DNA of 38,529 bases, taken from a virus. Below, one piece after another: positions 5,330 through 38,529 of this stretch. Each line of letters begins with the position of its first letter. The stretch's first letter is position 1. Position numbers and translations under genes: made by a program. The stretch spans positions 1-38,529 of the IMG/VR virus record IMGVR_UViG_3300036985_003510, one strand, 5' to 3'. The notes beneath the pieces were generated by a model that was not told the origin of the DNA, ran no database searches, and saw nothing but the letters and a program-made list of their open reading frames with translations.

Positions 5330-5929
5330 TTAAGTCTTGTCACTCAAATGCTCCAATGCCCTGTCAATTTCTGAACGCAGTATCTCTGAAATCTCCGCTG
5401 CCGTCTTGCCTTCGCACATTCCCGCCACCGCGTTCGGTATCGAGGTCAATCTTGTCTTGGTCATTAACGCTGCCTGTATGAACTTCCTGTTCACGTCGTC
5501 AATCGGCATGGTAAGGGTCTGGCTTAACTGGATCTCTGCAATATCTTTTTCCAATTTCCTGCGCTGCTCCGCAGCCTCCCTGTGTTGCGGCACTGCCCAC
5601 GGCAACTGACTACTGTTCGCGTTCTTCACAAGATCGAACATCACCATCTCTACATATCGGACCCGCTTCAAGAATGCGTTGAGGTCTTCTTCGTCACCTT
5701 TCTTGATCGGCGTCATCTTGACGTGTGCTGTTGACTCGGGATAGGTTGCGCTCAATCGTGAGGCGTGCTTAGCGCGATTGGTCTTCAGGAACCATGCGAT
5801 ACAGTCGCCGGGAACAAATCGTATCGGCCTGGACTTAGGGACACATGGCAGGCCTTCTTTGCGGAGTCGGTTGATTGCGTCCTGCCCGAGGCTTAGAGCC
5901 GCCGACATTTCTTTGAGACTGATTCTCAT
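5330..5929 (-). CDS. Terminase small subunit, Nu1-like
   Basis: 199 residues. The N-terminus (about 1-50) is a winged helix-turn-helix of the Nu1/MerR-like kind: ISLKEMSAALSLGQDAINRL followed by a wing and a VPGDCIAWFL helix. A charged linker and a helical C-terminal part (about 85-199) that would bind the large subunit follow. It recognises the packaging site and recruits the GpA subunit encoded just downstream. Domain order, length and position all fit lambda gpNu1. No strong ribosome site is visible before the ATG. Confidence 0.8.
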   Translation of the reverse strand: MRISLKEMSAALSLGQDAINRLRKEGLPCVPKSRPIRFVPGDCIAWFLKTNRAKHASRLSATYPESTAHVKMTPIKKGDEEDLNAFLKRVRYVEMVMFDLVKNANSSQLPWAVPQHREAAEQRRKLEKDIAEIQLSQTLTMPIDDVNRKFIQAALMTKTRLTSIPNAVAGMCEGKTAAEISEILRSEIDRALEHLSDKT

Positions 5930-6022
5930 GGTATGAATTGACTTTTCAAAACTTCAAGCGAGAGGAAAGAAGGCCTCGCGAACCTGCTTCCTTTTTTATC
6001 GTTCCGAGTACCTTGCCGGGCC

Positions 6023-6919
6023 TTAAGCACATATCTTGTTTCCCTTATTCATGTTCCCTATCTGCGTATCACCATGAGTTAAGGCAATGCCTGTTGTTGA
6101 CCATCGAGGCATTAGGTTATTCAATGACCATGCGTGCTTAATGAGTGTCATTGCATCTTCATGTTCATGTAGCGATAGAGGTACGATATGATCAATGTGC
6201 CATTCACTTCCATAGTTATCCCATGACATACCTGGTCTGAACTGTGATTCAAGATGTTGCTTGAGTGTATCGAATGTATAGCCTAAACACTTGATACTGA
6301 ACTTGCTCACGTATGGTCTACCATCACCCCGAAGATATGCGCTAAACCTTGTACTCACGTTCCTGGATATGCGCCCCCTGATACTCTTGCCCTTCTTGAC
6401 GTTGAGCGAACGCCACTGACAACGCATAGAGCAATACATTCTTTTGTTGCCGATTGGCATTTCTTTTCCACACACATGGCATGAGGTAATAATATTTGAC
6501 GGCTTTAACTGACTAATGATATGCACGGATTCAGCGTGAGATTGCTGTTTCCATTTACACATAAGAAAGTCTGGATTATCCCACTTTTTTTGCTTAGCGG
6601 TTTTCCTCCATGCCTTCCGAAGTTCTGATGCTCGCCCACTCTTATTAAATGACGTTCGTGCATTATATCGCACTATTAGGCGATGATCCTTAACACACCT
6701 TTTTTCTCCGCATGTCTTGGGCTCTTTTCCTCCTTTGATAAGCGTTCTGACGCTTACAGTTTTTCCACAATAAGGACACGTCATTTTAATGAACGGATTA
6801 ACAGGTGATCTTCCCCTCTTCCTTGCTCTCTGTGCGTTTTTCGAACATTGAAGCGAGCAATACAACTGCTGATCATTCTTCTCTTCAAACTCCGTGAGGC
6901 AGTATTTACACACTCTCAT
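6023..6919 (-). CDS. HNH homing endonuclease with several zinc knuckles
   Basis: 298 residues, preceded by GAAGGTG. The C-terminal HNH core reads WHIDHIVPLS (about 240-249) then SLNNLMPRW, the usual HNH arrangement with metal-binding histidines. The N-terminal half holds several Cys-x-x-Cys pairs (C4/C7, C21/C25, C48/C51, C147/C150) that look like small DNA-binding zinc ribbons. It starts inside the end of the glycosyltransferase gene. Free-standing HNH genes next to the terminase are common; some are selfish homing genes and some are needed for cos cleavage. Its A+T-richer sequence than its neighbours suggests a later arrival. Confidence 0.88.
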   Translation of the reverse strand: MRVCKYCLTEFEEKNDQQLYCSLQCSKNAQRARKRGRSPVNPFIKMTCPYCGKTVSVRTLIKGGKEPKTCGEKRCVKDHRLIVRYNARTSFNKSGRASELRKAWRKTAKQKKWDNPDFLMCKWKQQSHAESVHIISQLKPSNIITSCHVCGKEMPIGNKRMYCSMRCQWRSLNVKKGKSIRGRISRNVSTRFSAYLRGDGRPYVSKFSIKCLGYTFDTLKQHLESQFRPGMSWDNYGSEWHIDHIVPLSLHEHEDAMTLIKHAWSLNNLMPRWSTTGIALTHGDTQIGNMNKGNKICA

Positions 6920-8150
6920 ATTTCACCTTCTCCTCTTCTACATCATAACGTCCACTCATCTGTAGGCAATGCCCTATGCTCGCATATGTATCAACGCCTA
7001 TGCTTGCTCCTGCCTTGGCTGCATGATGACAGAAGCCGTAGTCCTCGCCATGATTGTCAATGTCAATGAACGGGCCACTAGACACTGCCTTGAGTACATC
7101 CTCAATCACCCATCTGCGTATGAGCGTGAAGGCAAGGCCGCATGTCTCTACTAGTATGGGCTTACCTGTCACATGATGCAGGCTGATGTCTGATGCTGTT
7201 GCGTTGATCATCCTGTCAAAACCCATGTCATATCGCACTAGAGCAATGGGGTTGTGTGGTGATCCTCCCGGTGATCCGTGCCTGCATACCGCAAGGCAGG
7301 AGAGCACGTCCATGTCAGTGTAGTGTGATCGCATCTTTTCCAGCGTGTCAGGCGGGAACACCATATCATCATCAATCATTAGGAGCGTGTTGCAATCTGT
7401 CTTGAGAAATTGTCCTGCCAGAAAGTTTGCTGCTGCTGCGTGTGGCATTGATTCGGCTGTCCTGATAATCGTGTCGCCTGTTCTGCGGCCTTGAGCAATC
7501 AAGCCTATCAGCGGCCATATGAATTGAACTGCTGGCTTCGATACCCTGATACCGATTGCGACTTTGCCCCATCCTATGCGTTCCTTCTGCCTCTTGATAT
7601 ATGTGCGCCGGTCTGCTGCCCACTTCTTTGCGTTGTATGCCCTGCGATAGTGCTTGTCAGATTTCAGGCCCTTGTGATTGTGGGTTATGACTTGCAGCGG
7701 TGTTATCGCAAAGCATCCTTGTTCCTTTGCGATGTCAACTAACTCAACATCAGAATAGCAGTGATGGTATGATTCAGAAAACACCTGCCCGTCCTTGAAT
7801 TGCCTGTAGAATGATCGGCTAATCATCCAATGAGTTGCAAAGGCTGTCCCGTACATTTGATCCTGTAGACCGATAAGCCCGCGCTTACCCTTCCTGAATT
7901 GCTCCATTGTGGCGAGTGCATCCGTGAAAATGTTTACATGGGGAATCACGTCATCGGCCAGGATCATCAGGTATTCGCCCTTTGCCATTCGCATGAGCCT
8001 GTTGCACATCATCGGGCCTGTGACGTGTTCGGGGTCAAGGTTGTGCTCACTGACAATCTCATAGGCGATGTCCCCGGCGTGCCGCTTCAGCAGTTTGATA
8101 CATCGCCTATATCCGACAGGGCGCAACCAGGGAATGATGACACTAATCAT
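6906..8150 (-). CDS. Tandem two-domain glycosyltransferase-like protein
   Basis: 414 residues with an AGGAGG site. Residues 1-190 look like a GT2-type (GT-A fold) domain: MISVIIPWLRP at the N-terminus, then LMILADD (62-67) as the nucleotide-sugar/metal motif. Residues about 195-400 start a second such unit, IGIRVSKPAV..., with LLMIDDD (257-262) as a second DxD-like motif. Two full GT-A units in one phage protein are unusual. Targets could be virion proteins, host surface glycans or modified DNA bases; nothing in the window decides this. It sits between a nuclease and the HNH gene in the leftward operon. Confidence 0.75.
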   Translation of the reverse strand: MISVIIPWLRPVGYRRCIKLLKRHAGDIAYEIVSEHNLDPEHVTGPMMCNRLMRMAKGEYLMILADDVIPHVNIFTDALATMEQFRKGKRGLIGLQDQMYGTAFATHWMISRSFYRQFKDGQVFSESYHHCYSDVELVDIAKEQGCFAITPLQVITHNHKGLKSDKHYRRAYNAKKWAADRRTYIKRQKERIGWGKVAIGIRVSKPAVQFIWPLIGLIAQGRRTGDTIIRTAESMPHAAAANFLAGQFLKTDCNTLLMIDDDMVFPPDTLEKMRSHYTDMDVLSCLAVCRHGSPGGSPHNPIALVRYDMGFDRMINATASDISLHHVTGKPILVETCGLAFTLIRRWVIEDVLKAVSSGPFIDIDNHGEDYGFCHHAAKAGASIGVDTYASIGHCLQMSGRYDVEEEKVKYESV

Positions 8151-8569: not shown

Positions 8570-8736
8570 GGTTGAATGAATGCCATCTTGACAGTAAGAA
8601 TTACAACCCCACGCCTCATCTCTTCTGACGTTTCTTGGATAATTGCCTTATGCTTCTTCACGGCATCTTTCAGGAAAGGATACTGGCGAAACAACCGCGT
8701 GTTGTATTCACATTCCCGCTGTGTGTCTTTTTTCAT
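8566..8736 (-). CDS. Small helical protein, 56 residues
   Basis: Too short for ordinary ORF cut-offs but well supported: its ATG overlaps the previous stop and its TGA overlaps the next ATG, both as ATGA. It is charged and helical throughout (residues 20-50), with no recognisable motif. I cannot name a function. Confidence 0.65.
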   Translation of the reverse strand: MKKDTQRECEYNTRLFRQYPFLKDAVKKHKAIIQETSEEMRRGVVILTVKMAFIQP

Positions 8737-8957
8737 AATGTCATGTGCGGATTGCCTGTCGGGATTTTCATGCTTCTGTATGTGGTTGCTGTTGCCGAGG
8801 GTTCAATTGGGTCCATGCTCCCGCATCGTTGACAATAAATCATTGCCTTATTTTCGCTTATCTTTACCGCCTGGAATTTATGCCCAAAGAGAACACATAA
8901 CCAATGCGGGTTCCATGTATATACAGGTGCACTGTATTCGGTCAGTCCGTTGTACAT
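8733..8957 (-). CDS. Small zinc-knuckle protein, 74 residues
   Basis: The centre reads WLCVLFGHKF, then YCQRCGS about 14 residues later. This Cys...Gly-His...CxxCG pattern recurs in small phage proteins and suggests one zinc site. It has a TGGAGGAAAC ribosome site and ends in an ATGA overlap with the next gene. Role unknown. Confidence 0.7.
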   Translation of the reverse strand: MYNGLTEYSAPVYTWNPHWLCVLFGHKFQAVKISENKAMIYCQRCGSMDPIEPSATATTYRSMKIPTGNPHMTL

Positions 8958-8970
8958 TGTTTCCTCCAGC

Positions 8971-9129
8971 TCATCTCTCCATCACGTCCCGTCTCTCATC
9001 GTGATTGTGTATATGCTGATTCCTTGGCAGGTACACGGCGAACGGATCAACTGATACCGTATTCGAGGCGATGGTGACGGCCTCATACTTCGGGCGCGGC
9101 TTGCGGGTTTTACGTTTGCGCTTGGTCAT
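8971..9129 (-). CDS. Small basic protein, 52 residues
   Basis: Begins with a very basic stretch (TKRKRKTRKPRPK) and continues with a mixed segment. Its ATG lies one base after the stop of the membrane-protein gene upstream, and an AAGGTG lies just before it. The basic tail suggests nucleic-acid binding, but this is only composition. Unrecognised. Confidence 0.55.
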   Translation of the reverse strand: MTKRKRKTRKPRPKYEAVTIASNTVSVDPFAVYLPRNQHIHNHDERRDVMER

Positions 9130-10780: not shown

Positions 10781-11508
10781 ACGAGGTAATTGATATTGAA
10801 TTGGTAGTGAACGAAACTCAAGTCACAATCGAGGAGCCTATCAAGTTGGCCCTTGTCGGAGACCTGAAACCGATTGCGGATAGAATGGCCGCTTACCATC
10901 AGGAGGTAACTGAGGCTGTTATATCCACAGAGGGAGACGCCAAAGATGCCGCCGAATGTTGCGACAATATCGCGGCAGACATCAAGACGGTGAAAGACCA
11001 TGAAGTCCTGTCGCGAATCACTGACGGCCTTTTCAAACTGCATCGCCGATGGACAGGATTACGCGACGCCATAGTTGCGCCCCTTGAAGCCGACCGGAAG
11101 ACGCTCAAGAATAAGGTCATTGCGTGGCAGGAGAATGAACGAATGAAGGCCGAAGCGTTGCAAAGGAAACTCCAGGCTGACGCTGACGAGAAGGCGCGGC
11201 GTGAAAGGGAAGCGCTGGAAAAGAAAGCGGCGAGCGTAAAGAAGGTAGAGACTCGAGAGCGACACCTTGAAGCCGCCGCAGAAGTTGTCGCGCCTGTCGT
11301 CTATGTTGCGGCCCCGAAGTCGAGTCTTAGGGTGTCCCGCGTGTGGGCGGTGACATCCATCAATCAAGATGAGTTCTTTACGGCACTGGCAACACATCCC
11401 GAAATGAGGGGCTATGTTGAAATCAAGCAGGCATCTTTGCAGCGAAGCAAGGCGGCGAATCAGGCATTGACTGTGCCGGGGGTCAGGTTCGATCAGGTGG
11501 TTAGGTAG
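10777..11508 (+). CDS. Coiled-coil recombination-module protein
   Basis: 243 residues from an ATG overlapping the nuclease stop (ATGA). A long helical region (about residues 30-170) has heptad-like Leu/Ala spacing and a very charged EKARREREALEKK stretch; the C-terminal 70 residues look globular. I have seen proteins of this layout next to phage exonuclease and annealing genes, where a Gam-like or accessory role is often suspected. I cannot confirm a role. It is the second gene of the recombination operon. Confidence 0.7.
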   Translation: MNEVIDIELVVNETQVTIEEPIKLALVGDLKPIADRMAAYHQEVTEAVISTEGDAKDAAECCDNIAADIKTVKDHEVLSRITDGLFKLHRRWTGLRDAIVAPLEADRKTLKNKVIAWQENERMKAEALQRKLQADADEKARREREALEKKAASVKKVETRERHLEAAAEVVAPVVYVAAPKSSLRVSRVWAVTSINQDEFFTALATHPEMRGYVEIKQASLQRSKAANQALTVPGVRFDQVVR

Positions 11509-11548
11509 CAGAGTCTGGATTGAGCGTCAGGAAGTAGGGGAGGACAGA

Positions 11549-11749
11549 ATGAAGGTATCAATGATGGTTACGTACGGGGAAACGGAAATCAAGGAACTGC
11601 TGGCGAAACATCACCGGGACACGTTTGGAAATGCGCCGAATGGAATGCACTGGGTTGTCACGAAGTCATATTCGGAATGGGAGGTTGAGGCGGTCGAGGA
11701 TGACATTGACCAGCCGGAAAAGATTGAAGACGCAACGGCAGCGAAGTAA
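11549..11749 (+). CDS. Small protein, 66 residues
   Basis: Start supported by GGGGAGGACAGA before the ATG. The first 50 residues look like a small alpha/beta unit (EIKELLAKHH helix, then WVVTKSYSEWEVEAV strands), followed by an acidic tail. It lies between the coiled-coil and annealing genes with short gaps. Unrecognised. Confidence 0.7.
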   Translation: MKVSMMVTYGETEIKELLAKHHRDTFGNAPNGMHWVVTKSYSEWEVEAVEDDIDQPEKIEDATAAK

Positions 11750-24118: not shown

Positions 24119-24367
24119 TTAGTGTTTTTCGTTATCGAACGCTTCCAGCGTTTCAAACTTGTTGCTGATTGAATTGAGCATCTGGTTAGTTGTGTACCCC
24201 TGCAATCCTGCATTGACGCGGAGTTTGTTTATCTCATCCAAAGTGACAAGGGAGATTGCCGAGATGCCGCGAGGCGAGAAAAAACCGGAAGCCACCTCTG
24301 ATATTTTCGCGGCCATACACGCGCACACAATCACGCCAAGCACAAAGCCTATGACAAGTTTTTTCAT
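24119..24367 (-). CDS. Small secreted or membrane-anchored protein, 82 residues
   Basis: ATG overlaps the previous stop (ATGA). A Lys-Lys start and hydrophobic residues 4-22 (LVIGFVLGVIVCACMAA) form a signal peptide or a membrane anchor. The remainder is helical (LDEINKLRVNAG). Cys in the hydrophobic stretch could suggest a lipoprotein, but no clean lipobox is present. Confidence 0.65.
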   Translation of the reverse strand: MKKLVIGFVLGVIVCACMAAKISEVASGFFSPRGISAISLVTLDEINKLRVNAGLQGYTTNQMLNSISNKFETLEAFDNEKH

Positions 24368-25611
24368 GGAGCCACCCACCATCCTTTGACTTTGATTCGC
24401 GCACCATCCATCCCCGATCCAATGTAATATCCAATGATGCCGTTGGTTGACGGGTAACAGCCGGACGCGCTGAATACCGATTGCCCCGATACCAGGATGT
24501 CCTGCTCCCCGCGCACCTGCGACGGGCTGGAAGTGTTTGTCGGCAGGACGCTCATGGAGTTGCCTACGGTGTTGTCATAGGACTGCACAAACAAATCCAC
24601 CATCCTGCACTTGCTGGGAACTCCGACGCCATTTGAGGACGTGTCAAGCGGTAGCCATGCCCCCGTCAACAGCCCGTTGGTCAATTCAAAATCGTAGGCA
24701 AACCCGTTATTGATTGTGCGCTGAACGTAGTAGTAAGCGTTTGTTTTTGTCCAGTCTATGACGCTGTTCGTTGCCGCGATTACGCTATCCACCCCGGCGA
24801 GGCCGTTGGTTGAGGTTGAGCCTACAGCGGGCGTCTGGTAGAAGATGGACGGTGTGCGGATGCTCGTGGACTTGCCGCCGCCACCATAGGTTGTGATGCT
24901 GCCGCTTGCACCGCCCGTGCGCTTGCCGTACCACAACACCGCAAGATAGGAGTTGGTTTTTACCAGATAATTCGTACTCGTGTGTGCCCGCGAGTCGTAT
25001 TCTGTCTCCGTTGTTGCGTCGGTAATGTCTTTAAGCGATGTCGTGTCAATGATGTTGGTGATGCTGCCGTTGGTCGAGATTGCCGCCAGTTTCCAGAATG
25101 CCTCAATGACGGGATTACCGAGGCCAGTAACTTTGACATGGTAGTGCCCCAGGTACTCGCCAGCGGGAACAAACATATCAGACTCACTCGCTGCCGTGTT
25201 GAGCATTTGTGTTGCGATGAAGCAGCCGAGATAATTTGTGCCAGCCGCAAGCGCCATGTTGGTGCTCCATGCCGCACCCTCTATCGAGTCAAGACTGCCG
25301 CAACCCGTCAACACCGGATGCGAGTTAGTTGTTCCGTAGAGTATCTGTGCGGAGTATTGTTGGAGCCGGAAGTCGAGGCGGTCAGAGGTCACGTACTCGG
25401 TAGGCCCATAGATGTTGTTCGTGTCGCCGCGATACCAGCGATAGGGGGTGTTTGTGGCCCATCCATACGCAAACCAGTTAGAGTCATTCGGATTATACAT
25501 TACCGGCTGATTCGTGTACTGGGCCTGCGCAGGTAACGCGAGCAGGATAGCAACAAGCACCGCACCGATGATTGCCGCGATACGGAAGCCCTGGATCAGT
25601 TGTCGTCTCAT
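24364..25611 (-). CDS. Secreted fibre-like protein, 415 residues
   Basis: Start at 25611 chosen from the GGAGG upstream; the longer reading is rejected. The N-terminus is a Sec signal peptide: basic MRRQ, hydrophobic residues about 13-28, then an ALPAQA cleavage site. The mature part is Thr/Asn/Ser-rich and beta-rich with many Tyr and Trp (NWFAYGWATNTPYRWYRG), like tail fibres or surface adhesins. It lies among tail genes, so a virion role is expected, yet a signal peptide on such a protein is odd. Confidence 0.7.
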   Translation of the reverse strand: MRRQLIQGFRIAAIIGAVLVAILLALPAQAQYTNQPVMYNPNDSNWFAYGWATNTPYRWYRGDTNNIYGPTEYVTSDRLDFRLQQYSAQILYGTTNSHPVLTGCGSLDSIEGAAWSTNMALAAGTNYLGCFIATQMLNTAASESDMFVPAGEYLGHYHVKVTGLGNPVIEAFWKLAAISTNGSITNIIDTTSLKDITDATTETEYDSRAHTSTNYLVKTNSYLAVLWYGKRTGGASGSITTYGGGGKSTSIRTPSIFYQTPAVGSTSTNGLAGVDSVIAATNSVIDWTKTNAYYYVQRTINNGFAYDFELTNGLLTGAWLPLDTSSNGVGVPSKCRMVDLFVQSYDNTVGNSMSVLPTNTSSPSQVRGEQDILVSGQSVFSASGCYPSTNGIIGYYIGSGMDGARIKVKGWWVAP

Positions 25612-25754
25612 CGTATCGCCTCCAGTGTCTGCCTGTACGGGCATCCTGTAGCCTCGCGCCGTGACTCGCAGTAAAGGATTGTGTAAACGAACATGAAAGC
25701 CGCTGCCAGCATGAGCGTGAGGAAGATGGCTTGTGTTGTTTGGTCTTGGGTCAT
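25608..25754 (-). CDS. Small membrane protein, 48 residues
   Basis: Overlaps both neighbours through ATGA junctions. Residues 9-28 form one transmembrane helix (AIFLTLMLAAAFMFVYTILY) followed by a charged tail with two Cys. A holin or membrane anchor is possible; nothing more can be said. Confidence 0.6.
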   Translation of the reverse strand: MTQDQTTQAIFLTLMLAAAFMFVYTILYCESRREATGCPYRQTLEAIR

Positions 25755-26695
25755 GGGTAGGCTCCTGCGGGGAGGCGGTTGCGCTTGTTAAGTGATGGAT
25801 GATTCGTGCTACCGCCCGCAATAGGGAATTGCAGTTTCTGGCAGCCGACATAGTAACTCAAGTTCGTGACTTCGAGGGCGGTTAGGTTGGTATTCATAAT
25901 ACTGACAAATGCTACACTGCCAGTCTCTAACTGCCCAAACGTACCGCCAACACCAACTCTAGCAGTAGTATTTGACGATCCGATATACGTGCCCAATACA
26001 GACACCGTAAATGGTGCAACTATACCATTGGTGTATGCTGTTATGTTTGTGGCTAAATTATTGACTAGGCTACCCGTCCACAGTACGAACGTCCAATCTC
26101 GCTGCGGAATAGTAGCAGATACCGTCATGGTTCTACTTTGAGCCGTATTCCCCTGCGCGTTTAACTGTAGTTTCGGCTGCCCCGAACTGATAGATGTTCC
26201 CCATTCGCGTGATCCTGCTGACCCCCACTTACTGCACACCGCCATATTGACGCCTATATAATATGGATTAACCCACGCGCAAATGGTAAACGGTACATCA
26301 TTTGAAATGTACGGAACCTTTGCAAATGTATGGTTATTGTTATCGTTTATCAGGAAATAATCATCGTCACCATCGAGACTCCATCCATATATCGCATCAC
26401 CCAATTCGTTAGTTCCAACGCACACATACAATGGGGCAGATTGATTACTTACAACGCAATGAGTTGGGGTTGCGGAAGTGTTGCCATTATCCAACATGCT
26501 TCCTGCGCTCCCATACTGTGGTGTTACAGAAGTGTTGGTTCCATAATCGGCTAGGAATACATAATTGGAAATGGGGTCTGTCCAGCCCTGACTCACAACA
26601 CTCCCCACGGCAACAGGCTTGTACTGCTGCATCCAGTTCCACGCCCCGCACGTCAGCACGCCGAGGGCAAGTAGGGTTATGGCGAGTTTTCTCAT
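25751..26695 (-). CDS. Secreted protein with LamG/concanavalin-like domain
   Basis: 314 residues from the ATG overlapping the previous stop at 26692. Signal-like N-terminus (MRKLAITLLALGVLTCGA). The region about 80-270 has the pattern of LamG/ConA-like jelly-roll lectins: SLDGDDDYFLI, FTICAWVNPYY, RDWTFVLWTG, AYTNG and a final FGQLETGSVAFVSIMNTNLTALEV. Such domains bind glycans and occur in phage fibres and cell-surface proteins. Probably a receptor-binding or fibre component; the signal peptide leaves open that it is exported by the host cell. Confidence 0.75.
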   Translation of the reverse strand: MRKLAITLLALGVLTCGAWNWMQQYKPVAVGSVVSQGWTDPISNYVFLADYGTNTSVTPQYGSAGSMLDNGNTSATPTHCVVSNQSAPLYVCVGTNELGDAIYGWSLDGDDDYFLINDNNNHTFAKVPYISNDVPFTICAWVNPYYIGVNMAVCSKWGSAGSREWGTSISSGQPKLQLNAQGNTAQSRTMTVSATIPQRDWTFVLWTGSLVNNLATNITAYTNGIVAPFTVSVLGTYIGSSNTTARVGVGGTFGQLETGSVAFVSIMNTNLTALEVTNLSYYVGCQKLQFPIAGGSTNHPSLNKRNRLPAGAYP

Positions 26696-27930
26696 TGTAA
26701 AACGTCCACGGAAAATACCACCTCTTGAGTTGAGCCGCCGGGGAAGGCGAGGCCGATCATGCTGTTGACGGGCACCGCCCACGAGAAATTGGACTGCGAG
26801 GATGCGCCTATGCAGGGCATGGTGCCCAACAGCGTCAGGTTGCCCCATCCGTTTGTCCAGTATTTGTAGTACACGTTCGCGGTCATGCCACCGCTGTACG
26901 CCTGTGCCGTGATGCGGGTGATTGTGCTGGCTGCTGTCACCATTGGCCCCCAGTTGGTTGTGGGCAGGGCGTATGTCCAGCACATTGTATTTGTCTGCGG
27001 TGCCGCCGCAATGCTGTTGTCAATGATTGTCTGGATGTTGGTGCCGTCAAGGGTAAGCCCGGTGCCAGATGCAAGATCAAGGCTGTCATCATCCCATGAC
27101 CATACCTGCATGGATGATGGCCCGTAGCCAGCCCTGCCGTCCCAATCGAGGCTGACGCTCGCATCAGTACACCACAACCGCCCATTTGCAAAGTCAATGC
27201 GCTGGCCTGTTGTAACAGTACCGACCGCCGCTATATTGGTGATGTTTCCCCCCTGCATGTCCAATGCTGGGAGTGCCGCGCTGTTTGTCCATGATTTTGG
27301 TAGTGCATTACCAGCGAGTGTACCCTGTGCCGCGGTTGCAAAGTCTGCCGTTCTGTTGGTTGAGGCGGTGCCGAGTCCGTTGGTAAGTGATCCAGCCGCC
27401 GTCAATACAGCATTACTGGTCAACCCGATCACCGCGCCCACCTTGGTCAGCAGGCCACCGGACACGCTCACGCCCGCGCCCCGTAGATCGAGGATACCTG
27501 AGGCCGATATGCCGCCGCTGTTCTTGACCGTGAGAGTGCCGCGCCCCCATTCGATTGTTTGCGTTGTGTTGGTCATCACCACGCCGCCGTAGAACGTGCC
27601 GTTGCTCCCGAACGTGTTGCTTGTGCACTGGAAGTCAATGTACGAATTAAGGGAAGTGAACACCCCGACAACACTTACCTTGCTTGTTGCATCCCAATCC
27701 GAGTTTGTGCCGTACCATAATTCGCCCGACCAGTCGGAAGAAGGAAACCACGCCTCACCGTTCTGCAACAGGTCAACACGGATCAATGGAGTTGCCCCGG
27801 CAAACGCGGTCAGTGTCCATGTTGCCGCTGGCTTCTGGCTGTCAACCGACCACTCTACTTGCGGAACAGCCGCCCTCGCATTACCCGCCGCGAAGATCAA
27901 ACACACAACCATCATTATTTTCAATTTCAT
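26692..27930 (-). CDS. Secreted tail-fibre-like protein with BppU/Ig-like N-terminus
   Basis: 412 residues with a GAGGAA site. A Sec signal peptide (residues 1-20, ending GNARAA) is followed by a beta domain (about 22-155) that is clearly related to the whole mature part of the neighbouring 27944 gene (WSGELWYGTNSDW versus WSGILWFGTNANW; YGGVVMTNTTQTIEWGRG versus YGGIVMTNGTRLIEWGQG). The rest is Thr/Asn/Gly-rich fibre with repeated short strands and a C-terminal beta domain. The N-domain resembles baseplate upper-protein style domains. Likely a receptor-binding fibre. Confidence 0.7.
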   Translation of the reverse strand: MKLKIMMVVCLIFAAGNARAAVPQVEWSVDSQKPAATWTLTAFAGATPLIRVDLLQNGEAWFPSSDWSGELWYGTNSDWDATSKVSVVGVFTSLNSYIDFQCTSNTFGSNGTFYGGVVMTNTTQTIEWGRGTLTVKNSGGISASGILDLRGAGVSVSGGLLTKVGAVIGLTSNAVLTAAGSLTNGLGTASTNRTADFATAAQGTLAGNALPKSWTNSAALPALDMQGGNITNIAAVGTVTTGQRIDFANGRLWCTDASVSLDWDGRAGYGPSSMQVWSWDDDSLDLASGTGLTLDGTNIQTIIDNSIAAAPQTNTMCWTYALPTTNWGPMVTAASTITRITAQAYSGGMTANVYYKYWTNGWGNLTLLGTMPCIGASSQSNFSWAVPVNSMIGLAFPGGSTQEVVFSVDVLQ

Positions 27931-27943
27931 ACGTTCCTCACTT

Positions 27944-28384
27944 TCAAAGAGTCAATACACACGTCGCAGTCACGCCCCCACTTGGTTGCACGGTTATAAC
28001 GCCCTGCCCCCACTCGATCAAGCGTGTGCCATTGGTCATCACGATGCCGCCGTACAGGGTTGCCGAGTTCGTGAAAGCGTTTGTACCGCATTGGAACGTC
28101 GCGTATGAATTGGTTGCGCTGAATACCCCGGTGACTGTTCCGCTTGTCGGGGCTTTCCAGTTTGCATTTGTGCCAAACCATAGAATACCAGACCACGATG
28201 AATCAGGAGTCCACGCGCTCCCCGCCTCAAGAAGATTGACGCGGAGTTTCGGGGCCGTCTTGACGTAGGCCGTCCATGTCCACTTGACGCCGGGATTCTG
28301 CACGTCGAGGGACACGGAGTACACGGGAGTTTCGGCCCGCGCATAGGTCACGCACAACAGCAAGACTATGAAAGCGTACTTCAT
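27944..28384 (-). CDS. Secreted single-domain paralogue of the fibre N-domain
   Basis: 146 residues: signal peptide (1-17, ending TYARA) plus one beta domain homologous to residues 22-155 of the 26692 protein. It lacks the fibre part, so it could cap or compete in the same assembly site, or be a truncated duplicate. ATG overlaps the previous stop (ATGA). Confidence 0.7.
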   Translation of the reverse strand: MKYAFIVLLLCVTYARAETPVYSVSLDVQNPGVKWTWTAYVKTAPKLRVNLLEAGSAWTPDSSWSGILWFGTNANWKAPTSGTVTGVFSATNSYATFQCGTNAFTNSATLYGGIVMTNGTRLIEWGQGVITVQPSGGVTATCVLTL

Positions 28385-28545
28385 TTCTTTGGTTCCGGCC
28401 GGACAATGAGTGTCTGCCTACATCCTTGATCGAGAGCCGCCACGAGTTGACTAAGCATCTGAGCCAGTTTCGCGGCTTGACTCACAGGGATGCTCACCGT
28501 AACTGTCGGCTCCTGCTGCGGTGCTGGCTGTTCTTGTTTCTTCAT
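28381..28545 (-). CDS. Small helical protein, 54 residues
   Basis: Preceded by AAAGGAG and ending in an ATGA overlap. Pro/Gln-rich start, a TVTVSIPVS strand, then a helix (QAAKLAQMLSQLVAALDQG). It may be a fibre assembly chaperone by position between two fibre genes. Unrecognised. Confidence 0.65.
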   Translation of the reverse strand: MKKQEQPAPQQEPTVTVSIPVSQAAKLAQMLSQLVAALDQGCRQTLIVRPEPKK

Positions 28546-28556
28546 GTGTCTCCTTT

Positions 28557-30134
28557 TCATGACTTTACCAGAATGGACACGGGGCCCGCAAGTGGTACTC
28601 CGTTGTTATCGTACAGGTACACGCCGGCCAGAAGGGAAAAGCCAGTGCCCGTGAATATCCCGCCGCTGAATGCTGACCCTACCGAATTGCCCGGAGTTCC
28701 ACCATGATAGTATGAACCCGTACCAACAACATTGATTCCATTTCCTGCCGTCACATTAATACCATAGTTAGCGTCACACATATCAACCGTCTGTGTTGCT
28801 GCAACGAGCCTTTGAAATCTGGCTGACAACGCTGCGGTAGTGTCCCCAAATGTGAAACTGTTAGTTGGAGAGATACAACCAGAGGTGTTGCCGAAGAATG
28901 CACCGCCTAGAACTTGAAATGCTCCTGTCGGAGTGCTGCCATTCCATACGGTTGTATCCTCGACGCGCACCTTTTTTACAAAACTTGCTCCTCCAACAAC
29001 AACAAGGCTTCCCAGCCCAAGGGCTGTATATGCTCCGATGTCAGTTGCATTGGAAATTTTCACCGTCCCAGCCGCTAGGAAATCCGTGAGTGCTGCCGCG
29101 TCAAAATCAACAAGAGCCGTCCCCGCGCCGTTACAGAGTTGGGAGTTATCGAGGTCAATGGCCTTGCTGTAATCGGCCCTTCCGATGCTGACAAATGCCG
29201 CCGCGCCGTAATGGGTTGTTGCATCGCCTGTGTATGTGCCGCCTATCTCGGAATACTGCTTAGAGTGTTGTCTGTTTGCCGTGCCAGTGTAAACCGTGGA
29301 AGCACTGGTCAGAAAATCAAGGTTCGCGTGTACGGTAGCCCCCGCAGCATTCCACGGGCCATTAGTGCCATTCCAGCCGCCGCCGCCACTCGCCGCTGCC
29401 GTGGTAAGACCCGTGGCCAGTTCAGTGATCGGGATGTATTTCCCCGCGCCCTTTGCCGTTGGCCGCGTAAACATCCCATCGCCGCTTGCCCACACTCCAT
29501 TGGCTAAGGTGTCCCATTGGAACGCTTGCGCCCTGTTCTTCGTTGTTCCTACCGTGGCGATGTAGTCGAGTGACACTCCATCAAGTACAGTCGGCTTGTC
29601 TGTGATGTCGCCGCCGTTCCAGAGTTGCTCCACTGCGGTTATCACGCCCGAGGTCACGGTGACTTTCCCAAATACCACTATCGGGCTTGTCGTGTACCTG
29701 CTTGGATAGGTCGCGCTCCAGGATGCCGTGAGTGTTGTGGGTTGCGTGCTGCCGGGGTTTGCCCCGCCCGTCAAGGTGCCAATGATGTAGCCGGATGCTG
29801 CGATACTGCCCACGATTGCGAAGTACTCGCCGTCGAAGCGGGGCGTGCCACCAGTACCGGGGCACAGCAAGCCGACATCGTACTCCGAGGTGCCTACGCA
29901 GACTGTCCAGATACCGGCACGGACACGGACTGAATCGCTGCTTAATTGCTCACATTCAAAATGATATGCAGGTGCAAGGTAAGGATTATCAATCCCTGAT
30001 ACCGAAAACCCGTCAGGCCATTGCGTCAAGCGTGTTCCGTGCCCCTGTTGCGGATATGTGCGAGAGGCAACGTCTATCAGTTTGTTGATAGGCCTGCTTC
30101 TAAATCCCTTAATTTTTGGAGGAATATCAAGCAC
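28557..30134 (-). CDS. Large tail-fibre or tail-tip protein
   Basis: About 525 residues from GTG at 30134, chosen because GGAGG lies just upstream; the frame is open further but overlaps the previous gene. Beta-rich, with Gly/Ala/Thr/Ser-rich repeats (SGGGGWNGTNGPWNAAG, VVVGGASFVKK, NYGINVTAGNGINV) that resemble beta-helical fibres. No signal peptide. It follows the 30146 tail gene, so it is likely part of the tail tip or side fibre. Confidence 0.65.
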   Translation of the reverse strand: MLDIPPKIKGFRSRPINKLIDVASRTYPQQGHGTRLTQWPDGFSVSGIDNPYLAPAYHFECEQLSSDSVRVRAGIWTVCVGTSEYDVGLLCPGTGGTPRFDGEYFAIVGSIAASGYIIGTLTGGANPGSTQPTTLTASWSATYPSRYTTSPIVVFGKVTVTSGVITAVEQLWNGGDITDKPTVLDGVSLDYIATVGTTKNRAQAFQWDTLANGVWASGDGMFTRPTAKGAGKYIPITELATGLTTAAASGGGGWNGTNGPWNAAGATVHANLDFLTSASTVYTGTANRQHSKQYSEIGGTYTGDATTHYGAAAFVSIGRADYSKAIDLDNSQLCNGAGTALVDFDAAALTDFLAAGTVKISNATDIGAYTALGLGSLVVVGGASFVKKVRVEDTTVWNGSTPTGAFQVLGGAFFGNTSGCISPTNSFTFGDTTAALSARFQRLVAATQTVDMCDANYGINVTAGNGINVVGTGSYYHGGTPGNSVGSAFSGGIFTGTGFSLLAGVYLYDNNGVPLAGPVSILVKS

Positions 30135-30145
30135 TCTTGCCTCCA

Positions 30146-31009
30146 CTAAACTACAGCCTGACCACCCTCGTAAAGCCTCTTCTGCCAACCACCTGTATTA
30201 CCTCGTCCGCCATCATATCCTACTGTTCCCCACCATTCATTGACGATCTGTACCCATTTTGTGCTGACGTTTCTAACTTGTGGCGGCATCTTTAGCCACT
30301 GCGTGACAGGTTCTACTGTTGCTGCATTGCCATCCCAAAACGTTACGAATGGCTGTGACCATTTTACTCGCTGGAAATCTGTGTGAGGGAAATCTTCAAT
30401 CCCTGGCCTGTTAGTTGCGCCGTCTCCATTGGTCGTGTAGTCAAACACATAAAATATATTTTCCATCGACGCTTTAACATCATCAGCCCGCGCTGTTGTC
30501 ATGGTGCGGCGTATCACCCAGTAATAGGCCAGATAACCATTGACCCCCATATTACGCAGCCTAACATATGTCTGGATATATAGTCCTGCGCCCTCCGAAA
30601 ACGTTGCAATTGCTGTCATGCCAGTCCCACGCCTTACGGCAACCTCAGCAGACTCTAGTTCTGTATCGCTTCCACTAGAGCCGTTGAATGCAGGATGTGT
30701 TCTTAAATCTTTATCAAGGCGCACGCCGTCAAGTTCCCATATAGCACTTTCCTTTGCATTCTCTTCTTCGTCGCCTTCATCCGGTGCGGAGGCTGTCGTG
30801 CTGAATGTTGCACTGATAACAGCATAAACCCCTTTTTCGACGTGGATGGTGTCAGGATCAAGAGTATCGGCAATAGTCTGTGCATAGGCGTCAGCCTTGT
30901 CTTGCGGCCCGTGCCAGGTGCGGGTAATGATCCAGCCCTCATCAGGTTTCCAGTCGCGCTGTTCCGGCTGCTCCGTGAAGGCGTCAACGCCTATGATTTG
31001 TTCAGGCAT
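30146..31009 (-). CDS. Tail protein of unknown class
   Basis: 287 residues, largely beta, without signal peptide. Segments such as VYAVISATFSTT and GMTAIATFSEGAGLYIQTYVRL suggest stacked beta strands as in distal tail or baseplate proteins. Its place between the tape-measure region and the fibre genes fits a distal tail protein (Dit-like) or hub, but I see no diagnostic motif. Confidence 0.55.
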   Translation of the reverse strand: MPEQIIGVDAFTEQPEQRDWKPDEGWIITRTWHGPQDKADAYAQTIADTLDPDTIHVEKGVYAVISATFSTTASAPDEGDEEENAKESAIWELDGVRLDKDLRTHPAFNGSSGSDTELESAEVAVRRGTGMTAIATFSEGAGLYIQTYVRLRNMGVNGYLAYYWVIRRTMTTARADDVKASMENIFYVFDYTTNGDGATNRPGIEDFPHTDFQRVKWSQPFVTFWDGNAATVEPVTQWLKMPPQVRNVSTKWVQIVNEWWGTVGYDGGRGNTGGWQKRLYEGGQAVV

Positions 31010-31016
31010 ACATCAC

Positions 31017-31445
31017 CTAGTTTTCGAGAACGGTAAATACGAAGTCTCCGGTAGCAACACACTTTATTGCCATGCTTGTAACTGCGTAAGTGGTTGTCAG
31101 TCGAAACATCTGATACTCTTCCGAGTTCAATGTGAGGTTCGTAGTTGTGCCACAATCGAAACTAATGAATATGGTTTTGTTCGTCGTGGCATTTTCAAGG
31201 AAGCACAGACCATGACCCGACACCGCGCCTTCACCGAGTGACTGCCAAGCATTTGTTGCGCTATACATGACGCTATAGAACCGCGTGCCCGTCCAGTCCA
31301 CCTGCAACGTGGCGGGACTGCGGTTGATCGTAGATCCGTTCTTGGTCGCCTTCAAATGAGCGTTCATCGTGATCTCATCGCCAGCGATACAAACAGCCGT
31401 TACGATCACGCCAATCAACATCCCTACAAGAAAAACCCTTTTCAT
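31017..31445 (-). CDS. Secreted small beta protein in the tail operon
   Basis: 142 residues. Signal peptide (MKRVFLVGMLIGVIVTAVCIAG, about 1-22) then a compact beta domain with NGSTINRSPATLQVDW and YAVTSMAIKCVA segments and a Cys pair (about 93 and 108) that could form a disulfide in the periplasm. It follows the tape measure directly, where a tail-tip protein is usually found. Exported function cannot be told. Confidence 0.65.
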   Translation of the reverse strand: MKRVFLVGMLIGVIVTAVCIAGDEITMNAHLKATKNGSTINRSPATLQVDWTGTRFYSVMYSATNAWQSLGEGAVSGHGLCFLENATTNKTIFISFDCGTTTNLTLNSEEYQMFRLTTTYAVTSMAIKCVATGDFVFTVLEN

Positions 31446-32539
31446 TATTCACCTGCCATTTCTTTTAGTTTCTGATTCATTTCTTTTGTCAATTCTGCTT
31501 GTTCTTTTGCAAACTCCGCGTTGATCTCTGTGGCTTTCGCTGTGCGCTCCATCGCGCCGATCATAGGATTGAGTTGCCCGCCTTGGAAACCACCGATACG
31601 GGCAAGGGAATCACCCTGCGCCTGACCCACGGTAATGCCGCCAATGGCTTTAGCGTTCTTTTCTCCAAGTGCAGTTAGCTTTTCAGTGTACTTTAATCGC
31701 AGTTCGGTTTCCTTGGCCTGCCTCTTAACTGCCTGCGCTTCTTCCTCTGCTGCAAGGCCCGCTTTCCGCATTGCCTCTAACTTTTTGCGGTCAGATTCAT
31801 CTTGCGCTATTTGGGCATTCACCTTTTTGCCGAGAGGATCTCCTAAAGCAAGATTGATGATATTACCGCGGGCTGAATAATATATCGCCATCTTGAAGAA
31901 ATCAGAAACCTTATCTTTCAATACCGTCCATGAGCGATTGGCAAGAGAAAGATGCGTAATGCTTTCGGTCATTGCTTTATTGATTCCCGGCATTCCTTTT
32001 TCTGCAATGTCTCGCAATGCTGAATAGTATTCGGCGGCGGCTCCCTTTCCCATTATGTTATTTAAATCACTAACGGCAGTACCGCTGGTCTGTGCGCCCT
32101 GTGCTACCCTGAGAAGTAACTGTTCGGGTGATAGTGTTGATAATTCAGAAATGGAAACACCTAAACGCATAAAGGAATCAATCATCTGCTTGTTGCCCTT
32201 AACGGCTTCTTCCTGAGAATCAACCATCTTTGCCATTTTCTGCTGGAAGCCTTCACCGCTTGCTCCGGTAGCCTCAACCATATCTCGTATGCCCTCAACC
32301 TTACCGCTGGACATTCCTAATATCTTTGCGGTTCTATCGAGCGATGCGGCTTCCTTCATTGATTCACCGACAAAACTTACCACTTTAGATATGGCTGCGA
32401 TAACAGCCGTAACAGCCGTGAACCTTCCGATAGCACTTGCCGCAAACGAGGATGCGCCCTGCTTCATTCGTGACAGGCCCGCTTCCCAGCCGGATGCGTC
32501 AAGTTTCGCTGTCCCTTTTATTTCTGCACGAGCGGCCAT
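31445..32539 (-). CDS. Short tape measure protein
   Basis: 364 residues, the position and make-up of a tape measure: it starts with KGTAKLDASGWEAGLSRMKQ, has a hydrophobic helix (about 38-60, AVIAAISKVVSFVG) and then long helices with KLEAMRKAGLAAEEEAQAVKRQ. Tape measures set tail length at roughly 1.5 angstrom per residue, which gives about 55 nm, short for a siphovirus. The C-terminal coiled coil ends QAELTKEMNQKLKEM. Confidence 0.8.
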   Translation of the reverse strand: MAARAEIKGTAKLDASGWEAGLSRMKQGASSFAASAIGRFTAVTAVIAAISKVVSFVGESMKEAASLDRTAKILGMSSGKVEGIRDMVEATGASGEGFQQKMAKMVDSQEEAVKGNKQMIDSFMRLGVSISELSTLSPEQLLLRVAQGAQTSGTAVSDLNNIMGKGAAAEYYSALRDIAEKGMPGINKAMTESITHLSLANRSWTVLKDKVSDFFKMAIYYSARGNIINLALGDPLGKKVNAQIAQDESDRKKLEAMRKAGLAAEEEAQAVKRQAKETELRLKYTEKLTALGEKNAKAIGGITVGQAQGDSLARIGGFQGGQLNPMIGAMERTAKATEINAEFAKEQAELTKEMNQKLKEMAGE

Positions 32540-35286: not shown

Positions 35287-36192
35287 TTAGGCCGTCACGA
35301 GACGAACCACGCTGTTCTGTACCTTCTTGACTCCGTACAGCAACAGGACTTCACCGGACAGCTTGCCGCCGCCATCGTAGAAGGTCTTGTAGAGTACCGA
35401 CAGGCCGCTCTCCGGCTCCGTTATGACGCGCTGGTCAACCAAGTTGCCCTCACCAACATCAGCAAGAGGCTCCGGAGGGGTCATCGCAATGGCTATTGCA
35501 TCACGCCCAAATACCGCACCAGCGAGATTCTCGCTGTTCGACGGCATCGCACCATAACTGATGGTATCCATGCCAATCAGTTTCGGCAGGACCGCGCTGG
35601 ACATGAAGTTCTGTCCGGCTGTCGCGAAGATCAGGCCCAGATTGCTCTCGCCCATGATTGCGGCAGAATATGCCGTGTTGAGGAGCAGTGTGCGTTTCCG
35701 TTCCTTGATCTTGGTCTCAGCATACTGCCACAGCAGCGCAAGTTTCTGCTGGTCGAAGTCGGCAACCGCACAGGTCAACTTGTCTGTGCCGTCGGTATTG
35801 CCGTAGTTGGCCCCGGTCACGAGCGCGAGGGCCGTGTCAACAACCTGTTTCGCCAGCGAGTAGGTAGCACCAGCGGCCTTGTCTGCCCAGTAGTTGGCCA
35901 GGAGCTGGCCGGCTATCTTGCCTTCCATAGCATCCCAGCCCGCGCCTTCGAACAGGTCCATCGTGACCTGCGTTCCGGCAACGGTTCCGGTTCCTGTCAA
36001 CGCTGTCCCTGCGGTTTTCGTGGCCACAGTCGGGTCAGTCGAAACAGGGACGTACACGGAGTTATCCTGCACAGCATCACCGACCGCAACGCGAAAACTA
36101 AACGCATTGAGGGCCGGGAGCATGTACTTGAGTGCTGAAATTACGCGACTGTCTACCAGCGCGCTGTTGATCGAACTTATTGTGCTTGCCAT
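35287..36192 (-). CDS. Major capsid protein (HK97-fold)
   Basis: 301 residues with an AAGGAG site. It follows protease and scaffold and lies before head-completion genes, and has the segments of coat proteins of this size: N-arm (1-45), a P-domain helix (DQQKLALLWQYAETKIKERK, about 149-168) and a C-terminal A-domain (GVKKVQNSVVRLV end). No long N-terminal delta domain is present because scaffold is separate. It should be the most abundant virion protein. Confidence 0.85.
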   Translation of the reverse strand: MASTISSINSALVDSRVISALKYMLPALNAFSFRVAVGDAVQDNSVYVPVSTDPTVATKTAGTALTGTGTVAGTQVTMDLFEGAGWDAMEGKIAGQLLANYWADKAAGATYSLAKQVVDTALALVTGANYGNTDGTDKLTCAVADFDQQKLALLWQYAETKIKERKRTLLLNTAYSAAIMGESNLGLIFATAGQNFMSSAVLPKLIGMDTISYGAMPSNSENLAGAVFGRDAIAIAMTPPEPLADVGEGNLVDQRVITEPESGLSVLYKTFYDGGGKLSGEVLLLYGVKKVQNSVVRLVTA

Positions 36193-36669: not shown

Positions 36670-37164
36670 CTACGGATTGTCGGTTGTGAAAATGCGGATC
36701 ACGTTTGTGCAGGTGTTGATGATTCCGACACCGTACAACTTGATCTTGAGGTTGCTGCCCACAAGAGCCTTCTCGTACTTGGCCTCAAGCACAGTAGTAG
36801 CAACGATGTTGGTTGATGCCAGTGTCGAGGATGCAGTTGCCCCGGCAATGTCAGTCCCCGCTGTGGTCGTGCCTATGAATCGCGGCCTGTAGACCTTCAC
36901 GGCAGTCGGCTGCGTGATCTGGTTTGTCACGTAAATGTCAGTGACCGTGGTTCCGCTCCACGTCCCAAGCATTACCATGTTAGTTGACAGGGCATCGCCC
37001 CCCGTCAGAACCACTTCCACCTTGTCCAAGTAGCCGCTTATCGGCAACTGGTCAGAGTATTCGCTTTCGCCGTTCGTGACTACCATCGTGGTTGTGTAAA
37101 CGTCGGCACTCGCCACGCCTATCACAAGCCCCATCGCCATGAGTCCGATCAATACTTTCTTCAT
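36670..37164 (-). CDS. Secreted paralogue 2 at the head decoration locus
   Basis: 164 residues with AGGAG upstream. A clear Sec signal peptide (MKKVLIGLMAMGLVIGVASA, 1-20) then a beta domain (YTTTMVVTNGE, YLDKVEVVLTGG, DIYVTNQIT, VIRIFTTDNP). It is about half identical to the 37184 neighbour, and 27 bases (36850-36876) are exactly shared with 37367-37393. Lambda has its decoration protein nearby. A decoration protein that carries a signal peptide would be very unusual. Confidence 0.75.
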   Translation of the reverse strand: MKKVLIGLMAMGLVIGVASADVYTTTMVVTNGESEYSDQLPISGYLDKVEVVLTGGDALSTNMVMLGTWSGTTVTDIYVTNQITQPTAVKVYRPRFIGTTTAGTDIAGATASSTLASTNIVATTVLEAKYEKALVGSNLKIKLYGVGIINTCTNVIRIFTTDNP

Positions 37165-37183: not shown

Positions 37184-37672
37184 TTACCTGTCCTTGACCG
37201 TGAAGATCCTCACGGTGTTTGTTAGTGTTACGCCGCTGGCTACATTCCCGCCCCAGTACTTCAACTTGAAGTTACTTCCGACAGGGAGTCTTTCATAAAC
37301 ACCCTTAAGCAATGTGGTCGTGCATTCATTTGTTGACGTGCTTGCCGATGCTGTAACCGCTGCGAGGTCAGTCCCCGCTGTGGTCGTGCCTATCACGCGA
37401 GGGCGCACGATCTTTCTGACCGCCGTAACGTTGTTCGTCACGTAGATGTCAACTGCGGTTGTGCCGCTGAATGTAGCCAGCATGATACCGCCTGTAGACG
37501 TGGCCGCGCTCTGGGCAATTTCCACCTTATCCAGATATCCCGCCACGGGTATCGGGTCGGAGTATGCTGCCGTCTGGTTGTTTGTGATTGTTACCGTGAG
37601 CGTGTAAACATCAGCACGGGCCATACCTGCGGCCAGCGCGAGCATACACCCTATCGCCACCATTTTCTTCAT
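37184..37672 (-). CDS. Secreted paralogue 1 at the head decoration locus
   Basis: 162 residues with GAGGAGATAGG upstream. Signal peptide MKKMVAIGCMLALAAGMARA (1-20), then a beta domain (YTLTVTITNNQ, YLDKVEIAQS, DIYVTNNVT, TVRIFTVKD) matching paralogue 2. Placed directly after the S49 protease and before paralogue 2 and scaffold. Possible roles are head decoration, periplasmic superinfection blocking, or surface exposure on the host. The tandem and the shared 27-base block suggest recent duplication or conversion. Confidence 0.75.
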   Translation of the reverse strand: MKKMVAIGCMLALAAGMARADVYTLTVTITNNQTAAYSDPIPVAGYLDKVEIAQSAATSTGGIMLATFSGTTAVDIYVTNNVTAVRKIVRPRVIGTTTAGTDLAAVTASASTSTNECTTTLLKGVYERLPVGSNFKLKYWGGNVASGVTLTNTVRIFTVKDR

Positions 37673-37675
37673 AAC

Positions 37676-38512
37676 CTATCTCCTCTTTTTGCTTTTACCT
37701 AATCCCGCCGCGATTTCTAACGCGGTGTTGTAACTAGTAATTTCGTCTATCAATCCGTTCTCCTTCGCTTCGACTGCGCCGAAAGACTGCCCCTGCATTA
37801 CATCGTCCGAGATGTTGCGCCCCCGCCCCGCCCGCACCGCTGCCTTGAAGTCTGCGCCCATCTTGTTGATTCGCGCCTGCAACATGTCTTCCTGTTCCCG
37901 CGTCAATTCTGTCCCCGGCAATCCCATGCCCTTATGCTTGCCTGACTTAAACAGGTTGAGTTTTACGCCCTCCATTGCCATTTGCCGGGAGCGGTCGAGA
38001 ATCGCCATGTATGCCCCGATTGATCCGATGTCAGCGGAGGTCATCGCGTAGATCAGGTCACATTGACTGGCCATCCAGTAGGCCGCTGAACCGATAAGGC
38101 CATCACCATAGGCCACGGTATACTTCTTCTGCCCGGCTGACTTGATCGCGGCGGCTACTTCCGGTGTTCCCATTGCCATGCCGCCAGGGGAATCGAAGAC
38201 CAACATCAGGGAATCAACCTCGTCGTCATCGCCCGCCGCCCGCACCATGCGCTCTAGAATGTCGCTGGAGGTCACGCCGCTATCGTAGAGCATGTCTGAA
38301 AACTTGCGCCCAATAACGCCCTGAACCGGGATTATCGCCGTATTCCCTTGGAGGGTGAATTGCCGCTTGCCGGGATTGGCGGGCATAGACTTGGCAAGGG
38401 CGTGCTGCGCTTCCTCGCGTGCCCCGCCCTCCGCGTGCGCTTCCACGATGTCAGTCAACACCTTGTGGACATCGGCAGGCAACAGCCACGGCTCACAGCA
38501 TAGCGCGGTCAT
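37676..38512 (-). CDS. S49-family head maturation protease (gpC-like)
   Basis: About 278 residues from ATG at 38512; a TTG at 38524 is an alternative without a better ribosome site. The SppA/S49 fold shows SPGG (about 108-111), the catalytic Ser in GSAAYWMAS (about 142), and the Lys in LFKSGKHK (about 189-194) as the general base of the Ser-Lys dyad. It processes scaffold and portal during head maturation. Unlike lambda gpC, no scaffold is fused at the C-terminus. The gene start repeats at 1-127. Confidence 0.9.
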   Translation of the reverse strand: MTALCCEPWLLPADVHKVLTDIVEAHAEGGAREEAQHALAKSMPANPGKRQFTLQGNTAIIPVQGVIGRKFSDMLYDSGVTSSDILERMVRAAGDDDEVDSLMLVFDSPGGMAMGTPEVAAAIKSAGQKKYTVAYGDGLIGSAAYWMASQCDLIYAMTSADIGSIGAYMAILDRSRQMAMEGVKLNLFKSGKHKGMGLPGTELTREQEDMLQARINKMGADFKAAVRAGRGRNISDDVMQGQSFGAVEAKENGLIDEITSYNTALEIAAGLGKSKKRR

Positions 38513-38529
38513 GCACCTGATCAATCTGG
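38403..38529. repeat. Terminal direct repeat, right copy (circular contig overlap)
   Basis: Exact copy of bases 1-127. Joining the two makes a circle of about 38,402 bp and connects the portal gene (minus strand, ending at 130) directly to the S49 protease gene (starting at 38512), which is the lambda B-C order. The biological continuity of gene order across the join supports circularity rather than a chance repeat. Confidence 0.95.

Follow-up and report, generated by a model that had tools for sequence, protein, structure and literature searches.

Why would a tailed phage place export signals on proteins that resemble parts of its own particle? The question is raised by a 38,529-bp virus record (IMG/VR IMGVR_UViG_3300036985_003510), which was analysed at full length and is called the window below. 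Its minus strand carries a late operon of the lambda type, with genes for a terminase (GpA ATPase and nuclease), portal, S49 protease, capsid protein, head closure and tape measure. Provided that the record is circular, the late genes run downward from 5.9 kb to position 1 and continue from 38.5 to 22.2 kb. The assembly of tailed phages is taken to be wholly cytoplasmic. The original prediction on this DNA held that a set of fibre-like late proteins begins with signals of the general secretory (Sec) pathway. We found such signals on these proteins and on proteins of the head module, and we propose, with a probability of slightly more than one half, that peripheral virion parts are exported by Sec and added to finished particles outside the cytoplasm, at or after the opening of the membrane.

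Export signals in the late operon

Signals were called with our own rule-based scorer on hand-called genes, the criteria being a positive n-region, a hydrophobic core, small residues at positions -3 and -1, and a start codon with a ribosome-binding site. The six genes named by the original prediction all open with Sec-type signals, which combine a positively charged start with a hydrophobic core; most also have a site like that of signal peptidase I. All are on the minus strand, and we refer to genes by their lower coordinate. They encode a 142-aa protein (31017-31445, AVCIAG followed by DEI), a 146-aa protein (27944-28384, MKYAFIVLLLCVTYARA followed by ETP), a 412-aa fibre (26692-27930, FAAGNARA followed by AVP), a 314-aa LamG/concanavalin-like lectin (25751-26695), a 415-aa Thr/Asn-rich fibre-like protein (24364-25611, LALPAQA followed by QYT), and an 82-aa protein (24119-24367). 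The last bears either a signal or a membrane anchor and is the weakest member of the set; its cleavage site is ambiguous, as is that of 25751. The longest open reading frames (ORFs) gave wrong starts for two genes, which were corrected to 26695 (not 26983) for 25751 and to 25611 (not 25851, and with GGAGG 7 bases upstream) for 24364.

Two more signal-bearing late genes lie in the head module, between the protease and scaffold genes. The first (37184-37672, minus strand) encodes a 162-aa cement-like protein that begins with MKKMVAIGCMLALAAGMARA followed by DVY. The second (36670-37164, minus strand) encodes a 164-aa paralogue, 53% identical to the first, with MKKVLIGLMAMGLVIGVASA followed by DVY. 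The idea of a fibre-like set with export signals is therefore supported and extends to head proteins, for a total of eight late-operon proteins. No lipobox cysteine, as in the superinfection-exclusion lipoproteins of the Llp/Cor type, was called in any of the eight. Meanwhile, the core proteins are free of signals: none was found on the portal, the S49 head protease (37676-38524), the scaffold candidate, the major capsid protein (35287-36192), the connector, the tape measure, the 287-aa tail protein 30146 (30146-31009) or the 529-aa fibre 28557 (28557-30146), which provides a cytoplasmic contrast; the four genes with coordinates are on the minus strand. The scorer also picked out an early plus-strand ORF (8576-9004), which was discounted; its hydrophobic stretch comes late.

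The frequency of these calls was compared with that in other phages, using hand-chosen gene lists from which very short ORFs (e.g., 25608-25754 and 28381-28560) were omitted. At a stricter cut-off, the scorer called 8 of 29 late genes in the window, 5 of 22 in the related virus G003 (contigs L014 and L173), 4 of 25 in G028 (L183) and 1 of 11 in G030 (L185). The clade total is 18/87, one call being lipoprotein-like, against 6/162 in seven control phages (lambda, B40-8, JBD25, HK97, CRP-406, FP_Epona and Dulem virus 34). The six control calls were lambda Lom, Rz, Rz1 and Bor, which are known envelope or lysis proteins, and JBD25 gp36 and gp49, perhaps false calls. The difference is significant (Fisher p = 4.8e-5, for genes that are not independent of each other), also after removal of the four lambda genes and the lipoprotein-like gene (17/86 versus 2/158, p = 5.6e-7). 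In an automatic survey of 101 loci, 54 of 1005 genes were flagged; genes were poorly called there, true cases were missed and false ones were included, among them an inner start of the window tape measure gene, so the survey was not relied on.

A Shine-Dalgarno match of at least 4 bases precedes 14 of the 17 signal starts, the exceptions being 25751, 27944 and the LamG gene of L173. Better-conserved downstream starts had been raised as a possible objection, and none that is conserved came to light: of the in-frame starts near the cleavage sites, a single one, the GTG at codon 17 of 36670, is preceded at a plausible distance by a four-base match, and this codon is not conserved. The mature exported proteins also differ in composition from the non-exported ones (charged residues 12% versus 22%; T+N+S 29% versus 18%), a trend that fibres generally share. 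Judged from sequence, the export signals themselves are strongly supported, as is an excess of signal-like N-termini over chance in the window and its clade.

Conservation of the signals among relatives

In alignments of the large terminase subunit (TerL), the window is 44% identical to L014, 51% to L175/L183 and 41% to L177/L185. L013 and L176 apparently represent the L014 virus again, and the short length of L178 keeps the module out of view. The TerL tree groups the window with L183 and L014 (98/97), places L002 as their sister (90/89) and leaves L185 and L186 outside. The original prediction had pointed to signal-free homologues as evidence that would speak against it. Within the clade, the signal is kept in the families of 37184 (4/4), 31017 (3/3) and LamG (2/2), and it persists while the identity of the exported proteins drops to about 23-53%. 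Conservation of the export signals is thus directly supported.

In L014, a homologue of 37184 with a signal sits between the protease and the scaffold, and a homologue of 31017, also with a signal, precedes the tape measure gene. Further downstream in the same virus, a fibre of 446 aa and a LamG protein each bear a signal, and the homologue of 30146 bears none. L183 encodes two signal-bearing proteins between protease and scaffold, one of them of the 37184 family, as well as a 31017 homologue, whose gene precedes that of a tail protein, and a signal-bearing fibre cut by the contig end. Its relatives of 30146 and 28557 (the latter related at the N-terminus) have no signal, and neither does the 30146 homologue of L002, a virus that also encodes a homologue of the window's capsid protein. 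The 31017 family displays a shifting operon position and a constant signal across three relatives: its gene lies after the tape measure gene in the window (31017-31445), before it in L014 (14028-14453), and before a tail protein gene in L183 (10628-11071).

No second, signal-free copy of the exported proteins was found in the head modules of the clade viruses, and the visible late region of G003 holds no fibre candidate besides the signal-bearing one. Viral contigs yielded no relatives when searched with the tape measure protein, 30146 and two further queries (A1 and A6). Against 50,697 phage records, tblastn returned no match for 26692, 25751, 28557, 37184, the L183 fibre, the 31017 homologue of L014 or the 37184 homologue of L183, and only chance-level matches for 31017. 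The LamG protein of L173 matched one cyanophage, present in three records.

Probable virion-type identity of the signal-bearing proteins

The clearest case is found in L185, where a signal-bearing gene (5926-6876) is flanked by the genes of a head protease (phrog_3244) and of a capsid protein of the Mu-like gpT type (PF10124, E 1.1e-45). Its product matches phrog_1731, annotated as a virion structural protein (E 2.2e-27; residues 20-151 to profile positions 2-133 of 135), and the match begins at residue 20, directly after the signal. This protein matched 115 phage records by tblastn and is 38-40% identical to PaMx73_36, JBD25 gp37, and proteins of ThpS-P1 and one gut phage. All four of these homologues, the ones examined, are signal-free (4/4), and the difference at the N-terminus consists of 19 extra residues in L185, MKKAIIYAVAMFVSASAFA. 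The predicted mature start, TALTAARNTP, lines up with TALTTDRNTP, which follows the initial methionine in PaMx73. Cleavage was placed after residue 19 on the basis of the S-x-A-F-A motif and the alignment; the first site acceptable to the scorer is residue 15. By this alignment, a Sec signal is inserted precisely ahead of a capsid protein family in L185, and its absence from the homologues in other phages shows that it was added to a virion protein.

The homologue in PaMx73 links this family to virions. According to PMC4378225, the ORF h protein of PaMx73 was detected in virions by mass spectrometry, its gene lies between the protease-scaffold and major head genes, and it was proposed to be a decoration protein. 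We equated PaMx73_36 with ORF h from its annotation (virion structural protein, accessory ORF) and its place. The gene order of protease, family gene and capsid gene is common to both phages, the difference being the Sec signal that L185 has and the four relatives do not. The virion-type identity of this head protein is directly supported. Two other assignments were discarded: membership in the DUF2190 cement family is not supported by Pfam, and equivalence to the minor capsid protein of JBD30 is wrong, that protein being gp39, encoded after the capsid gene. Searches by sequence found no solved structure for the L185 protein or JBD25 gp37.

Among the fibre-like proteins, 27944 offers similar evidence. 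The model of its mature form, built from a three-row alignment, has a predicted local distance difference test (pLDDT) of 70.7. It matches the baseplates of TP901-1 (4v96; VIA Z 13.0, root-mean-square deviation (rmsd) 5.8 over 123 residues) and 80alpha (6v8i; Z 12.3, rmsd 2.6, 113 residues), and the N-terminal domain of TP901-1 ORF48 (3uh8; Z 11.5, rmsd 2.7, 109 residues), with non-phage Ig folds at Z 7.9 or less. The best match in BFVD is a BppU domain protein (E 1.2e-8), and Pfam returned no family at E up to 1. As modelled, then, this is the fold of the BppU-N domain, which attaches receptor-binding proteins to baseplates, and the virion-type identity of the domain is directly supported. 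Unlike 27944, the BppU-N domains of TP901-1 ORF48 and 80alpha have no Sec signal in front, and their identity to it in structural alignments is about 5-15%. The N-terminal domain of 26692 is 48% identical to 27944 and, through this similarity only, would be BppU-N-like; the C-terminus of 26692 is a putative receptor part. For the L183 fibre there is a weak match to phrog_1084 (E 7e-4). Both 25751 and its signal-bearing homologue in L173 are LamG proteins, the latter matching phrog_8510, "virion structural protein" (E 6e-11).

The head-module protein 37184 is a candidate capsid cement protein, a role made likely by the matches of its model together with its place next to the protease. The model is poor (pLDDT 59.2). 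In the PDB it is closest to the KHP40 cement protein (VIA Z 9.2), with a capsid chain of KHP30 (9.0) and one of Pam1 (8.8) next, and with unrelated proteins close behind (8.4 or below). The sequence of 37184 is unrelated to those of the KHP30/KHP40 cement and Pam1 proteins, and it has an export signal; its position in the head module is similar to that of lambda gpD. Neither 37184 nor 36670 matched the phrog_1731 profile, so they are not placed in that family, and BFVD gave no match to 37184 at E 1e-3 or better. Collectively, the sequences and models suggest that the exported proteins are virion parts.

The window holds other features of interest. The tape measure protein (31445-32539) has only 364 residues (342 in L002 and 343 in L183), which suggests a short tail. 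Beside the terminase genes, a glycosyltransferase family 2-like protein (6906-8150, Pfam E 5.8e-5) might modify the virion or the envelope. The gene at 22200-22724 matches phrog_1128 (E 9.8e-29), a family whose name in PHROG (enoyl-CoA hydratase-like) looks doubtful here.

Proposed assembly in two compartments and its rivals

Based on these findings, we postulate that the outermost parts of the virion, namely capsid cement or decoration proteins and the fibres or receptor-binding proteins of the BppU and LamG types, are made with cleavable Sec signals. They would leave the cytoplasm via Sec and be trimmed by the host signal peptidase, while the core particle (capsid, portal, DNA, tail tube and tip) would be built in the cytoplasm. 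The exported parts would remain in the periplasm or envelope until holin or lysis opens the inner membrane, and would then dock on the finished particle, so that assembly would take place in two compartments and finish on exit. The T4 proteins Soc and Hoc reportedly bind defective heads in vitro, to judge by the title of one study. In JBD30, decoration sites form only on the expanded, matured head (PMC11445458), which makes late docking feasible.

Several points weigh against this proposal. The actual export, the presence on virions, and the place and time of docking are steps that we infer. A cement protein beyond the inner membrane cannot reach the capsid until the membrane opens. For 37184, the profile searches gave no PHROG or Pfam match, and its model (pLDDT 59) matches cement barely better than it matches unrelated folds (8.4). 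L002, which belongs to the wider TerL group, encodes a signal-free fibre and no such head protein, so the trait may have been lost there or gained twice. The window and L183 also carry a signal-free fibre of the 28557 family, and the exported fibres may therefore be dispensable for adsorption. Two reasons for export were considered and rejected. Cysteine is not enriched in the exported proteins (26 in 3506 residues, versus 48 in 5528 residues not exported), as would be expected for disulphide folding, and neither is D[ST][AILVMTC] (11 versus 22), which we take to be the motif of Bacteroidetes-type O-glycosylation.

The original prediction had left open whether the signals reflect a new assembly strategy or a coat for the host surface. 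The latter is the main rival, and in our judgement an unlikely one: virion-like proteins would be displayed on the infected cell as decoys or a coat, blocking receptors or shielding the cell, and would not be virion parts here. Proteins of the LamG and BppU types would be good receptor blockers, envelope proteins encoded in late operons are known (e.g., lambda Lom, on which our scorer called a signal), and the signal-free fibre 28557 would be left for the virion. Yet head cement would have no clear use on the cell surface, and head-module proteins bear signals in all four viruses with no second, signal-free copy in their head modules. The exact coincidence of the predicted mature N-terminus in L185 with those of its virion homologues, and the want of an alternative fibre candidate in the visible late region of G003, also speak for a place on the particle. 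The assembly reading fits better, since the signals stand on families known from other phages as virion parts (phrog_1731/PaMx73 ORF h and the BppU fold) and no signal-free second copy accompanies them. A single exported pool might also serve both roles, coating the envelope during infection and decorating departing virions; this shares the support of both single readings, needs export and virion identity together, and seems improbable.

Doubt may also fall on the signals themselves. They could be hydrophobic pro-peptides that direct particle assembly and are removed by, e.g., the S49-type head protease, whose gene adjoins; T4-like phages bear N-terminal targeting peptides on inner head proteins. 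We hold this to be quite improbable, given that the same type of signal occurs across head, fibre and lectin proteins, that the sites are of the signal-peptidase type (A-x-A and variants) with positive starts retained, and that the mature composition is envelope-like, although fibres generally share it. Chance or wrong gene starts, for which the purely rule-based scoring and the two misplaced longest-ORF starts could be cited, are already disfavoured and very improbable, in view of the excess of calls (18/87 versus 6/162), the conservation in relatives, and the ribosome-binding sites at the signal starts.

The export habit may be wider than this clade. Among 384 Omnitrophota genomes, the 37184 family was found in none (0/384) and phrog_1731 in three, with a signal called on 0/3. 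Elsewhere, an Omnitrophota assembly (L096, 10760-14482) carries three consecutive signal-bearing genes between terminase and portal, which encode a 168-aa protein, a LamG protein and an 809-aa fibre-like protein. An Omnitrophota contig (L197) has a signal-bearing gene (10926-11696) directly after a capsid-like gene, and a phrog_1731 gene without a signal. A TerL scan of genomes gave matches of 29-39% identity from many phyla among the best 80, and no title among these 80 named Kiritimatiellota or Lentisphaerota.

The protein families and the signals described here were already known. As for their combination in a tailed phage, no report of Sec signals on tailed-phage virion proteins was found in the literature searched, which excludes most subscription journals. 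That this tailed-phage lineage assembles its virions in two compartments, with a cytoplasmic core and Sec-secreted cement and fibres added on exit, strikes us as quite possible, if a little short of an even chance. If true, a secretion step is added to the assembly of dsDNA tailed phages, and intracellular particles should be bare and released ones dressed. Such a process would have implications for the periplasm as a site of assembly and for the ways in which uncultured phages bind or protect their hosts, and finishing outside the cytoplasm, if shown, would constitute a new kind of assembly.

Two further known systems invite comparison. The envelope morons of the lambda Lom/Bor and Llp/Cor types are likewise exported proteins encoded in the late regions of phages. 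These are presumably not virion proteins, and the exported set of the window differs from them in its virion-type domains and head-module proteins. The coat proteins pIII and pVIII of filamentous phages, meanwhile, are virion proteins that use Sec. These phages leave the cell by extrusion through the membrane and lack a terminase, a portal and a tail, unlike the window, which encodes TerL, a portal and a tape measure.

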